From NCBI RefSeq assembly GCF_000430625.1, contig NZ_AUMJ01000044.1, positions 1-58,969 on the forward strand: a stretch of DNA of 58,969 nt, read 5' to 3'. A program made the position numbers and the translations under genes. The DNA is from Aneurinibacillus terranovensis DSM 18919. Lineage in GTDB: Bacteria > Bacillota > Bacilli > Aneurinibacillales > Aneurinibacillaceae. The notes under the pieces were generated by a model, which had not been told where the DNA came from, made no database searches, and saw only the letters and a list, made by a program, of their open reading frames with translations. This document shows positions 12,981-47,369 of this stretch, piece by piece. Within the stretch, counting starts at the first letter, position 1. Each line of letters starts with the position of its first letter.

Positions 12981-12985
12981 TTGGC

Positions 12986-13070
12986 TATAAGAAAGCATAA
13001 CTTTCTTATATGCATCAGTACAACTAAGGCTGCCATCTGCGCCTTCGGCTTGATGCCAGCCAAGTTTTCT
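12986..13070. repeat. Intergenic repeat: AT-rich hairpin plus GCCAAGTTTTCTTTA box
   Basis: A 10-bp perfect inverted repeat (TATAAGAAAG, 5-base loop, CTTTCTTATA, 12986-13010) is followed by CTAAGG and a segment ending GCCAAGTTTTCTTTA at 13065. A closely similar stretch (CTAAGG ... TGCGCCTT ... CTTGG ... GGCCAAGTTTTCTTTA) recurs at about 52889-52945 after an unrelated gene. A related TAAGAAA hairpin lies at 17013-17042. This looks like a short dispersed intergenic repeat. Confidence 0.55.
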
Positions 13071-13451
13071 TTAAATGATGCGCCTTGCGGTCATATAATA
13101 TTGCATAAGCCAGCTATCCAGTCTGCTAACGATGACGTTATATCTTGGATTCGTCATATGAAGCACGCGGCCGTTTCCCAGGTAGAGCGCCACATGGGTA
13201 GCATCTTGTTGTTCTTTTTTTGTATTAAAAAATACGAGATCACCTTTTCGGAGCTCCCTCATCGATACGTATTCCCCTAAAAATACCTGGTAGTTAACCG
13301 CTTTTGTCCCTATATTAATACCGTTCTCTTTGAAAATATAATAAATAAAACTCGAACAATCCAGATATGCGGGAGGTCGGTAATCATAGCTGAATTTAGA
13401 CTTCCCGATTAAACTCATTCCCGTACGGATTACATTATCTATGACTTCCAC
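13071..13451 (-). CDS. NlpC/P60 family protein without signal peptide
   Basis: This 126-aa protein is a bare NlpC/P60 domain. The catalytic Cys is Cys32 in LDCSSF, the His is His86 in THVALYLG, and His98 in VLHMT is a plausible third residue. The family comprises cysteine peptidases that usually cleave gamma-D-Glu-diamino acid bonds in peptidoglycan. No signal peptide or wall-binding domain is visible, so a cytoplasmic or sporulation-linked role, or another amide substrate, is possible. The GTG start is preceded by AAGGAG on the minus strand. It faces mtaB convergently. Confidence 0.85.
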   Translation of the reverse strand: MEVIDNVIRTGMSLIGKSKFSYDYRPPAYLDCSSFIYYIFKENGINIGTKAVNYQVFLGEYVSMRELRKGDLVFFNTKKEQQDATHVALYLGNGRVLHMTNPRYNVIVSRLDSWLMQYYMTARRII

Positions 13452-13569: not shown

Positions 13570-13797
13570 TAGGTGCGAATGGAATGTACGAATGGAATGG
13601 GCCGTTTTATTTTTTTGCGAGTTTTTCCTTGCAGGGAAGCGGAGACTGTCCGTGCTCCTCTTCCGCTTTGAGGCGGCCCGAAACATCCGGTTATCTCAAA
13701 ATGATGGAGACAGTCGGGCCTAAAAGCACCTCCAAGCTCCAGAGAAGCACTGAGTATCGGAAAAAAAAGCAAAAAATATAAACCGGCCCATTCCATT
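13570..13797. repeat. Structured inverted-repeat element, copy 1
   Basis: The terminal inverted repeats of about 28 bp (13591-13618 with 13769-13797) both begin AATGGAATGGGCC when read inwards. Inside lies a hairpin GGCCCGA/TCGGGCC (13675-13681 with 13714-13720). Its loop, read on the minus strand, has the family core TGTCTCCATC ... TTGAG ... ACCGGATGTTT. The left arm (TTGCGAG, CTTGCAGGGAAG, GACTGTCCGTG) recurs at 28.2 and 47.0-47.3 kb. The short open frames here are by-products of the repeat. Confidence 0.75.
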
Positions 13798-27735: not shown

Positions 27736-27835
27736 GCTAAAGTCCTTTATACTTAGGGAAACACTCCTTGGTGTCCGATTTTTCTAAGGAGTTAGACCAC
27801 CTGTGAGGAATTAAAAGCGTGCGTTTTCCTACTAG

Positions 27836-28247
27836 GGGGACGTCTTTCTGCCCGACTGTCTACCTCTTTGAGCTACCCGGATATTTCGGGCAGGTCCCCC
27901 TTTGTTCACGTTAAAGAAAGTATATGTTGCTTTACAGTGTTAAAGCAACATATACTTTCCTCCATGGGTCACCCGAGAAAAACTCGCGGGAGTGTGCCGA
28001 ACGTTGCTTTTTCAATGTGGAGCGTGTGACCGGAAGGTCGATCAGACCGACAATTGTCTCCATCATTGAGGTACCCGGATGTTTTGTCGGTCCGACCTTC
28101 CGGTCACTAAGCGGCCGTTTCGCTACCCTGCAGAAAAAGGACGAGCGACAACGCCCGCGAGTTTTTCTCAGTAACACGGACAGTCTCTACTTCCTTGAAA
28201 GGGAAAACCCGCAAAAAATAAAAACGGAGCATTCCATTCGCACCTAC
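27836..28247. repeat. Structured inverted-repeat element, copy 2, split by an inserted 262-bp element
   Basis: The left part (27836-27908) holds the core hairpin CTGCCCGA/TCGGGCAG (27848-27893) and CCTTTGTTCA. The right part (28171-28247) resumes with TAACACGGACAG and runs through GGGAAAACCCGCAAAAAATAA to ATTCCATTCGCACCTA. In the uninterrupted copy at 47.2 kb these two parts are directly joined. The 262-bp element at 27909-28170 therefore sits inside this repeat. Confidence 0.75.
27909..28170. repeat. 262-bp structured repeat, copy A
   Basis: It is 98% identical (5 mismatches, no gaps) to 32253-32514. It begins with a perfect 19-bp hairpin (27916-27934 with 27941-27959). A long cruciform follows, closed by GAGAAAAACTCGCGGG and its exact complement (27975-27990 with 28154-28169) and containing GACCGGAAGGTCG / CGACCTTCCGGTC (28028-28040 with 28093-28105). 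Its apical loop matches the core of the other repeats. Open frames crossing it are by-products of the palindrome. Confidence 0.9.
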
Positions 28248-28421
28248 CCACATGTTTCGCACCGCCTCCGCATGTTTCGTACGAGGGATGTTCCGTTCGC
28301 TCCAAAACTGGTATGATACAGATATTATCCTTTTTTTATTTTCTACATACAATGGAGAAGATGGGCGGGTGCCCACAAGAGAGAAAGATGTCCTCACAGG
28401 GGATATGAAGGAGGCTTTTAC

Positions 28422-31748: not shown

Positions 31749-32192
31749 ATGAGACTCGTCGATCGGTTAACCGACGATATGAAGCAAGCGATGAAGAACA
31801 AAGACAAGCTCAAACTTTCCGTAATTCGTATGGTGAAAGCTTCGATTAAAAACGAAGAAATTAACCAGGGCAAGGAGCTATCTGACGACGAAGTGTTAAC
31901 TGTCTTGACTCGTGAGCTGAAGCAAAGACGCGATTCCCTCCATGAATTCGAAAAAGCCGGTCGTGATGACCTTGCAGCAACCGCCCGCGAAGAAATTAAC
32001 GTTTTAATTGAATATATGCCTGAACAATTAAGTGAAGAAGAAATCCGCCGGTTGGTGAGCGATGCGATCCGGCAGGTTGGAGCCTCCTCCAAAAAAGATC
32101 TCGGGAAAGTCATGGGCGTCCTAATGCCGAAAGTTAAGGGACGTGCCGATGGAACTCTCGTTAATAAAGTTGTCCAGGAGCTATTACCATAG
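31749..32192 (+). CDS. yqeY: GatB/YqeY domain-containing protein
   Basis: YqeY (147 aa) is an all-helical protein related to the tail domain of the GatB amidotransferase subunit; its exact role is unresolved. Family features include LSVIRMVKASIKNEEI, FEKAGRDDLA, EYMPEQLSEEEI and the final MGVLMPKVKGRADG. It is coupled to rpsU (ribosome binding site TAGGAGGAA) and followed by a strong terminator. Confidence 0.94.
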   Translation: MRLVDRLTDDMKQAMKNKDKLKLSVIRMVKASIKNEEINQGKELSDDEVLTVLTRELKQRRDSLHEFEKAGRDDLAATAREEINVLIEYMPEQLSEEEIRRLVSDAIRQVGASSKKDLGKVMGVLMPKVKGRADGTLVNKVVQELLP

Positions 32193-32214
32193 TTACGGTT
32201 GTGGCGTTGCCTAG

Positions 32215-32245
32215 AACCCCTTCTGCGAAAGCAGAGGGGGTTTTT
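32215..32245 (+). terminator. Terminator after yqeY
   Basis: AACCCCTTCTGC, GAAA loop, GCAGAGGGGGTT then TTT (32215-32245). Confidence 0.92.
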
Positions 32246-32252
32246 CCTTTGC

Positions 32253-32514
32253 CGTTAAAGAAAGTATATGTTGCTTTACAGTGTTAAAGCAACATATACT
32301 TTCCTCCATGGGTCACCTGAGAAAAACTCGCGGGAGTGTGCCGAACGTTGCTTTTTCGATGTGGAGCGTGTGGCCGGAAGGTCGATCAGACCGACAATTG
32401 TCTCCATCATTGAGGTACCCGGATGTTTTGTCGGTCCGACCTTCCGGTCACTAAGCGGCCGTTTCGCTTCCCTGCAGAAAAAGGACGAGCGGCAACGCCC
32501 GCGAGTTTTTCTCA
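32253..32514. repeat. 262-bp structured repeat, copy B
   Basis: The second copy of the element at 27909-28170, offset by exactly 4344 bp with five substitutions and no gaps. It lies 8 bp after the yqeY terminator and is flanked by unrelated sequence, so its ends (GTTAAAG ... TTTTTCTCA) are well defined by comparison. No target-site duplication is obvious. Confidence 0.9.
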
Positions 32515-46950: not shown

Positions 46951-47020
46951 AATCCGTTTATTTTTGCCGAGTTTTCCCTTACAGGGAAGTTTAGACTGTC
47001 CGTGCTCCTCTTCTGTTTGG
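46951..47020. repeat. Partial left arm of the structured repeat family
   Basis: CCGTTTATTTTTGCCGAG, CCCTTACAGGGAAG, GACTGTCCGTGCTCCTC: closely similar to the left arm at 13600-13655. No matching right arm follows within 100 bp. A complete copy starts 105 bp further on. The sequence between (47021-47124) has only degenerate resemblance to the core. Confidence 0.6.
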
Positions 47021-47124
47021 AAACGGAAATTGCATTTACGCGGGGGCCTGCATGCAAGGCGGCTGTTCTTTTCCTGTCTACTCATCATCCATGTTTGTCG
47101 GAACGCAAATACGGATTTGGCTGC

Positions 47125-47325
47125 AATGGAATGGTACGTTTCTTACTTTTTGCTTTTTTCCCGCTGCCTAGTGTTATGAACAAAGGAGAACGTCTTTCTG
47201 CCCGATTGCCTCCCTCTTTGAGTTACCCAGATGTTTCGGGCAGGTTCCCCTTTGTTCATAACACGGACAATTTATACTTCCCTGCAAGGGAAAACTCGCA
47301 AAAAGTAAAAACGACCCATTCCATT
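47125..47325. repeat. Structured inverted-repeat element, complete copy
   Basis: The ends AATGGAATGG (47125-47134) and CCATTCCATT (47316-47325) close a long palindrome. Internal pairing includes a perfect 16-bp stem GTGTTATGAACAAAGG / CCTTTGTTCATAACAC (47171-47186 with 47249-47264) and the core hairpin CTGCCCGA/TCGGGCAG (47198-47243) with loop motif CTCTTTGAG and ACCCAGATGTTT. This is the cleanest reference copy in the window. Confidence 0.85.
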
Positions 47326-47369
47326 GCCCCACCGAACCATTGATGTTGCGACAAACGTGGATTTATTTA

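Follow-up and report, generated by a model that had tools for sequence, protein, structure and literature searches.

A family of non-coding repeats of Aneurinibacillaceae inserted directly behind terminator-like hairpins

Introduction

A stretch of 58,969 nucleotides of the Aneurinibacillus terranovensis DSM 18919 genome (contig NZ_AUMJ01000044.1, positions 1 to 58,969; hereafter the window) contains a palindromic repeat that is split by another structured repeat of 262 bp (Table 1). This raises the questions of whether the inner unit is mobile and why it resides inside the outer one. A preliminary description, made from the letters of the window, had proposed that the unit is or was mobile, had given it exact ends and a length of exactly 262 bp and, from the absence of a clear target-site duplication, had argued against a standard DDE transposon. 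In this study, the unit was compared across its copies in its own genome (4.25 Mb, 98 contigs) and in relatives, of which G001 is Aneurinibacillus sp. Ricciae_BoGa-3, G002 is A. tyrosinisolvens and G009 is A. danicus. Beyond the preliminary description, we found that the whole family, as a rule, inserts at terminator-like hairpins.

Results

The nested locus

Table 1. Features of the window that bear on the nested insertion and its target sites.
Feature	Positions	Strand	Basis
Family B copy, ~91 bp, behind terminator GCGGAGCC...GGCTCCGCTTTTATT	12983..13073	+	
Interrupted outer repeat, 5' part: hairpin AGGGGGAC...GTCCCCCT and tail TTTGTTC, terminator-like target	27834..27908	+	
262-bp element (CGTTAAAG...TTTTTCTCA)	27909..28170	+	repeat finder, copy comparison
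Left-end palindrome of the 262-bp element, 19-bp stem, GAAAGTATA motif	27916..27959	+	
Long hairpin, rest of the element, closing at its 3' end	27975..28169	+	fold and paired changes
Conserved apical loop (TTGTCTCCATCATTGAGGTACCCGGATGTTT), also in the outer repeat	28055..28085	+	
Right-end tail TTTTTCTCA, terminator-tail-like	28162..28170	+	
Interrupted outer repeat, 3' part (GTAACACGGACAG...CATTCCATTC)	28171..28243	+	
Intrinsic terminator (AACCCCTTCTGC/GCAGAGGGGGTT and T-tract), target of the second copy	32213..32252	+	after gene 31749-32192
Second 262-bp copy	32253..32514	+	98% identical to 27909-28170 (repeat finder)
Uninterrupted copy of the outer palindromic repeat	47120..47330	+	

As previously noticed, the sequences CCTTTGTTCA and TAACACGG are joined in the outer copy at 47.2 kb and split in the copy that holds the insert. 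Positions 27834-27908 matched 47184-47258 at 88% (repeat finder), and positions 28172-28238 matched the same 47.2-kb copy at 85%. Because most of its left arm is missing, the split copy is a damaged one, whether the damage preceded the insertion or came later. Because the junction of insert-free outer copies (L032, L033, L042 and L048) is mostly TTTGTTCGTAACACGG or TCTGTTCGTACCACGG, the gain in the window would most simply be ACGTTAAAG...TTTTTCTCA, i.e., 263 nt, with the target neither lost nor duplicated; base 27908 (A) probably belongs to the insertion as well. The nesting thus stood, with an insert length of 262-263 nt by the insert-free copies instead of exactly 262 bp; of the ends given before, the 3' end (TTTTTCTCA or TTTTTCTTA) was confirmed, and the 5' end, GTTAAAG, proved to be 1-2 nt short.

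The unit was also found in two other outer copies, as CCGTTAAAG...CTCA within TCTGTTC/GTACCACGG (L010) and as CATTAAAG...CTTA within TTTTTGG/CATAACACGG (L061; empty form, L045). These are three separate insertions in different outer copies at the identical place of the outer repeat, and their comparison revealed a constant 3' end and a 5' end that shifts by one or two bases. The window also contains diverged or partial outer copies at 13591-13797 (-) and 46957-47004 (-). The outer-type repeats L079, L088 and L089 of other species (G005, G007) have the apical loop in common and different outer arms, which are self-complementary each time.

Copies, ends and fold

The unit occurs at ~40 unrelated sites of its own genome, with 40 dispersed near-full-length copies at 95-100% identity. 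Diverged copies are present in relatives within Aneurinibacillaceae, the best being those of G009 (83%), G010 (78%), G002 (74%) and G008 (73%), and the plasmid collection contained no match. At the yqeY-yqfD terminator, the element is present in the window (32253), and the terminators of G002 and G003 are element-free. The dispersed near-identical copies, the three nested insertions and the element-free terminators in these two relatives bear out the proposed mobility.

Across copies, the ends of this non-coding element are (N)CGTTAAAG and TTTTTCT(C/T)A, and the flank pattern is TTTTTTA[N]/CGTTAAAG...TTTTTCT(C/T)A/any sequence. Both ends carry hairpins. Comparison of flanks and nested sites revealed no target-site duplication at the 262-bp copies, and the element has no terminal inverted repeats; because both are lacking, a standard DDE transposon is unlikely, in agreement with the earlier argument.

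The 262-mer folds at -128.5 kcal/mol with a z of -10.8 against shuffled sequence, and the outer repeat copy has a z of -11.5 against the same kind of control. Across nine aligned copies, taken from four species, 9 of the 61 consensus pairs of the whole element are altered on both sides yet still paired, and these changes are located in the left palindrome, a short hairpin at columns 92-101 and the central stem. The element and the outer repeat have an apical loop in common, TTG(T/C)CTCC..C.TTGAG.TACCC.GATGTTT (E = 5e-7); in the named genome collection, its pattern matched Aneurinibacillus only, with a looser match in one genome outside the family (G036). Four A. danicus loci hold an internal-deletion form without the apical part, the deletion being bounded by two CGGCAAC repeats. 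To judge from these four loci, movement would seem not to need the apical loop, unless the deletion has arisen repeatedly. In the own genome, both orientations of the left-palindrome loop are found (CAGTGT in 31 copies, ACACTG in 2), as expected from inversion between the palindrome arms.

The target site

Compilation of the insertion sites, which had been suggested as a check, revealed that the left flanks of nearly all copies are intrinsic terminators, i.e., a G+C-rich stem and a T-tract followed by the element, and that the right flanks are unrelated to one another. In nearly all copies the element begins typically 8 nt from the end of the stem (range ~7-11 nt, by inspection), and its orientation is constantly that of the terminated transcript. 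Of the 48 own flanks, 42 have a stable hairpin (<= -8 kcal/mol) upstream of the insertion, as do 26 of the 29 flanks from A. danicus. Such a hairpin was found at all insertions with an exact T6A (15/15), compared to 26% of 600 T6A controls (Fisher p = 2.4e-9) drawn from a 1.26-Mb sample of the own genome, taken as stretches. A separate stem-scoring scan found a hairpin in 37 of 48 own flanks versus 6% of random positions, and several of its misses are long-loop terminators. Among the terminator-like sites of the 1.26-Mb sample, 35 of 830 are occupied (a few sites being counted twice). The terminator rule was also seen in G001, G002, G008, G009 and G010.

The base preceding CGTTAAAG is variable: it is a C in 33 of the 48 own copies, versus 21% at unoccupied T6A sites, and a T in 18 of 29 copies of A. 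danicus. This base probably belongs to the insertion. An A is found at -2 in 32 of 48 own left flanks, which are otherwise a loose T-tract. The right end of the element (hairpin and TTTTTCTTA) resembles its own target, and one 262-bp copy (L071) lies directly behind the right end of another. The nested case obeys the same family-wide rule, as insertion into the outer repeat is explained by the terminator shape of its central hairpin and TTTGTTC tail.

Terminator sites are also occupied by family B (~91 bp, ~40 copies in the own genome), which has the left-end motif CGTATAGGAAAGTATA beside CGTTAAAGAAAGTATA in common with the 262-bp element; the GAAAGTATA motif of the left palindrome is common to family B and to relatives in other species. 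Copies of the two families are found behind each other's right ends. The site choice of family B is less strict: its copies lie at terminators or other T-rich places, and 12 of 23 flanks passed the hairpin test. In G010, a B-like element was observed within a 262-type element (L426, G010:C4:4562000-4566400).

Search for an autonomous copy or a partner enzyme

The left-end sites of four genomes yielded no autonomous copy, and no partner gene was found for the 262-bp element. When ~50 such sites were read in A. danicus, G010 and A. tyrosinisolvens, no element gene was seen, the genes downstream not being annotated singly. The own genome has one full-length Y1 gene (132 aa). The full-length Y1 genes that were checked in the own genome and relatives had no left-end motif within ~1.5 kb, and no ends were common to the element and the Y1/IS605 loci of these genomes.

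The reverse transcriptases of the own genome were rejected as partners, the two longer genes lying in other group II introns, as do the RVT_1 matches except a fragment beside an RF02001 intron on contig C7. The group IIC reverse transcriptases of G001 and G002 were likewise rejected, their genes being split by a Tn554-like transposon. Such split group II intron reverse transcriptase genes were observed at three loci (L332, G001:C1:1415500-1423500; L333, G002:C13:66000-73500; L334), where an insert of ~2.9 kb interrupts the VVDMDLEKF/FDKVNHD motif. Its 644-aa and 353-aa ORFs appear to resemble Tn554-type tyrosine recombinases, and ~8 copies are found in G001, in two intron classes. The insert may be a transposon with group II reverse transcriptase genes as its special target.

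The window matched no Rfam family, including no group II family such as RF00029, at the gathering threshold, and positions 27780-28280 gave no group II match even at E<=5. Group II domain V was absent from the 262-bp element in these Rfam searches, and the element has neither a GUGYG 5' start nor a group IIC-type 3' AY end.

Discussion

The dispersal, target rule, orientation, ends and lack of duplication were all observed. Our preferred reading, to which we assign a probability of roughly 0.6, is that the 262-bp unit represents a non-autonomous mobile element found in Aneurinibacillaceae, one that inserts one-sidedly and in a single orientation, just behind intrinsic terminators or terminator-like hairpins. 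Its parts are a palindrome at the left, a long hairpin as cargo and a terminator-like right end (hairpin and TTTTTCTTA). Because this right end is itself terminator-like, each insertion would remake a landing site, and tandem insertions do occur; the nested case would be one such landing, in the terminator-like hairpin of an older repeat. We infer that movement may depend on a trans-acting enzyme, which would recognise the folded single strand (hairpin and T-tract) and cut where the tail ends, at the target as well as at the right end of the element. Because the two cut points are alike (hairpin and T-rich tail), a single enzyme that cuts folded single strands is suggested. An HUH-type single-strand nuclease acting in trans is tentatively considered the best fit to this symmetry, short of even odds; a reverse transcriptase of the group IIC-intron type ranks after it and is an unlikely mover, and a mover other than these two is conceivable at odds of about one in three. 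Against the preferred reading stand the lack of an autonomous copy or partner gene in the searched genomes, the laxer family B with a hairpin in 12/23 flanks, and the variable base before CGTTAAAG, which is unexpected for a precise single-strand transposase.

The element could instead be a bacterial SINE-like retroelement, the RNA of which would be copied and inserted by the reverse transcriptase or RNP of resident group IIC introns, whose targets are the same terminators. Group IIC introns of the own genome and relatives lie at TTTTTTA/GTGCG behind terminators, i.e., at the position used by the element, and RF02001 matches number 6 in the own genome, 9 in G001 and 7 in G008. These introns are known to target a stem-loop together with a short IBS1 pairing (PMC7923331). 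Three own-genome copies that were read (L217, L243 and L272 on C1, C5 and C16; ~440-700 bp) lie directly behind terminators and lack an intact reverse transcriptase gene; at least these three therefore depend on an enzyme in trans. The 1-nt heterogeneity of the 5' end of the element and its precise 3' end are as expected after reverse transcription. It is because the IIC target is common to both, the ORF-less introns are trans-dependent and the 5' end is ragged with a sharp 3' end that the reverse-transcriptase route retains some weight. However, the element has neither domain V nor a GUGYG start, no convincing sequence similarity between it and a group IIC intron was found, and A. danicus holds many similar copies and no RF02001 intron, which is the weak point of this explanation. 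Overall, we regard it as improbable, at about one chance in four. It is a little less probable still that the element is a counterpart of SINEs in a wider sense, i.e., a short structured RNA with a terminator-like tail, reverse-transcribed and inserted at other terminators by the IIC machinery or another reverse transcriptase in trans.

Equally doubtful as the group IIC explanation is a strict non-autonomous IS200/IS605-type element, moved by a Y1 (HUH) transposase of known kind into a short T-rich target, with terminators merely offering TTTA or TTAC. The hairpins at both ends, the lack of duplication, the frequent TTAC in left flanks, the AAAG at the base of the left hairpin and the full-length Y1 gene of the own genome are consistent with it. 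For known IS200/IS605 elements a tetra- or pentanucleotide suffices as target, whereas here the hairpin counts beyond the T-tract (15/15 vs 26%), and the ends are not those of Y1 elements.

Intergenic spaces behind genes are tolerant sites, so that random insertion followed by survival where harmless could mimic targeting; this is very improbable, as it leaves unexplained the near-constant 7-11 nt spacing, the single orientation, the T6A[C]/ junction and the nesting into repeat hairpins other than gene terminators. That the 47.2-kb outer copy arose from a longer form by deletion, which would have undone the initial reading of the locus, has practically no probability, since no point in its support was found and the insert is present in only 3 of ~45 known outer copies and at ~40 unrelated sites.

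Group IIC introns are known to insert at terminators. In the present case, unrelated non-coding elements without an intron ribozyme occupy IIC-type sites in several species and at high copy number, by which the targeting principle (hairpin and T-tract) becomes testable apart from the intron; this suggests that the space behind genes is a niche in which integration does no harm. Should a reverse transcriptase be responsible, the elements would count as parasitic retroposons of bacteria; should it be a nuclease, as single-strand transposons with a structural target. No published description of such elements was found in the open literature, and within that literature the context, a family of mobile elements that are non-coding and terminator-targeted, is new.

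Comparison with known systems

The element resembles the MITEs of DDE transposons (ERIC, RUP and Correia type) in being short, non-coding, strongly folded and of high copy number, but differs from them in its strict target structure and in having neither terminal inverted repeats nor a TA or other duplication. Like the REP/BIME elements dispersed by RAYT, it places hairpins behind genes and was probably moved in trans, but it is much longer, has a defined right end with a T-tract and carries no GTAG tag. Its sequence contains no palindrome of 20-40 nt with a GTAG or CGTC tag of the REP/RAYT type, these tags being described in PMC3733652. Non-autonomous derivatives of IS200/IS605 share with it the terminal hairpins, the lack of inverted repeats and of duplication, and a TTAC-like left flank. 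In contrast to them, the hairpin upstream of the element is part of the target, and no transposase with these ends was found; the fixed, unstructured left target of 4-5 nt typical of IS200/IS605 is replaced by a loose flank with a hairpin enriched beyond the T-tract. Group IIC introns come closest in target choice, as they reside in these genomes too and use an identical position, directly behind terminator hairpins, in one orientation and without duplication. They are set apart from the element by its length of 262 bp, its lack of domain V, of a GUGYG start, of a reverse transcriptase and of a match to any intron model, and the terminator-like hairpin at its end. The 262-bp element is group IIC intron-like in its target, but it is not a group IIC intron.
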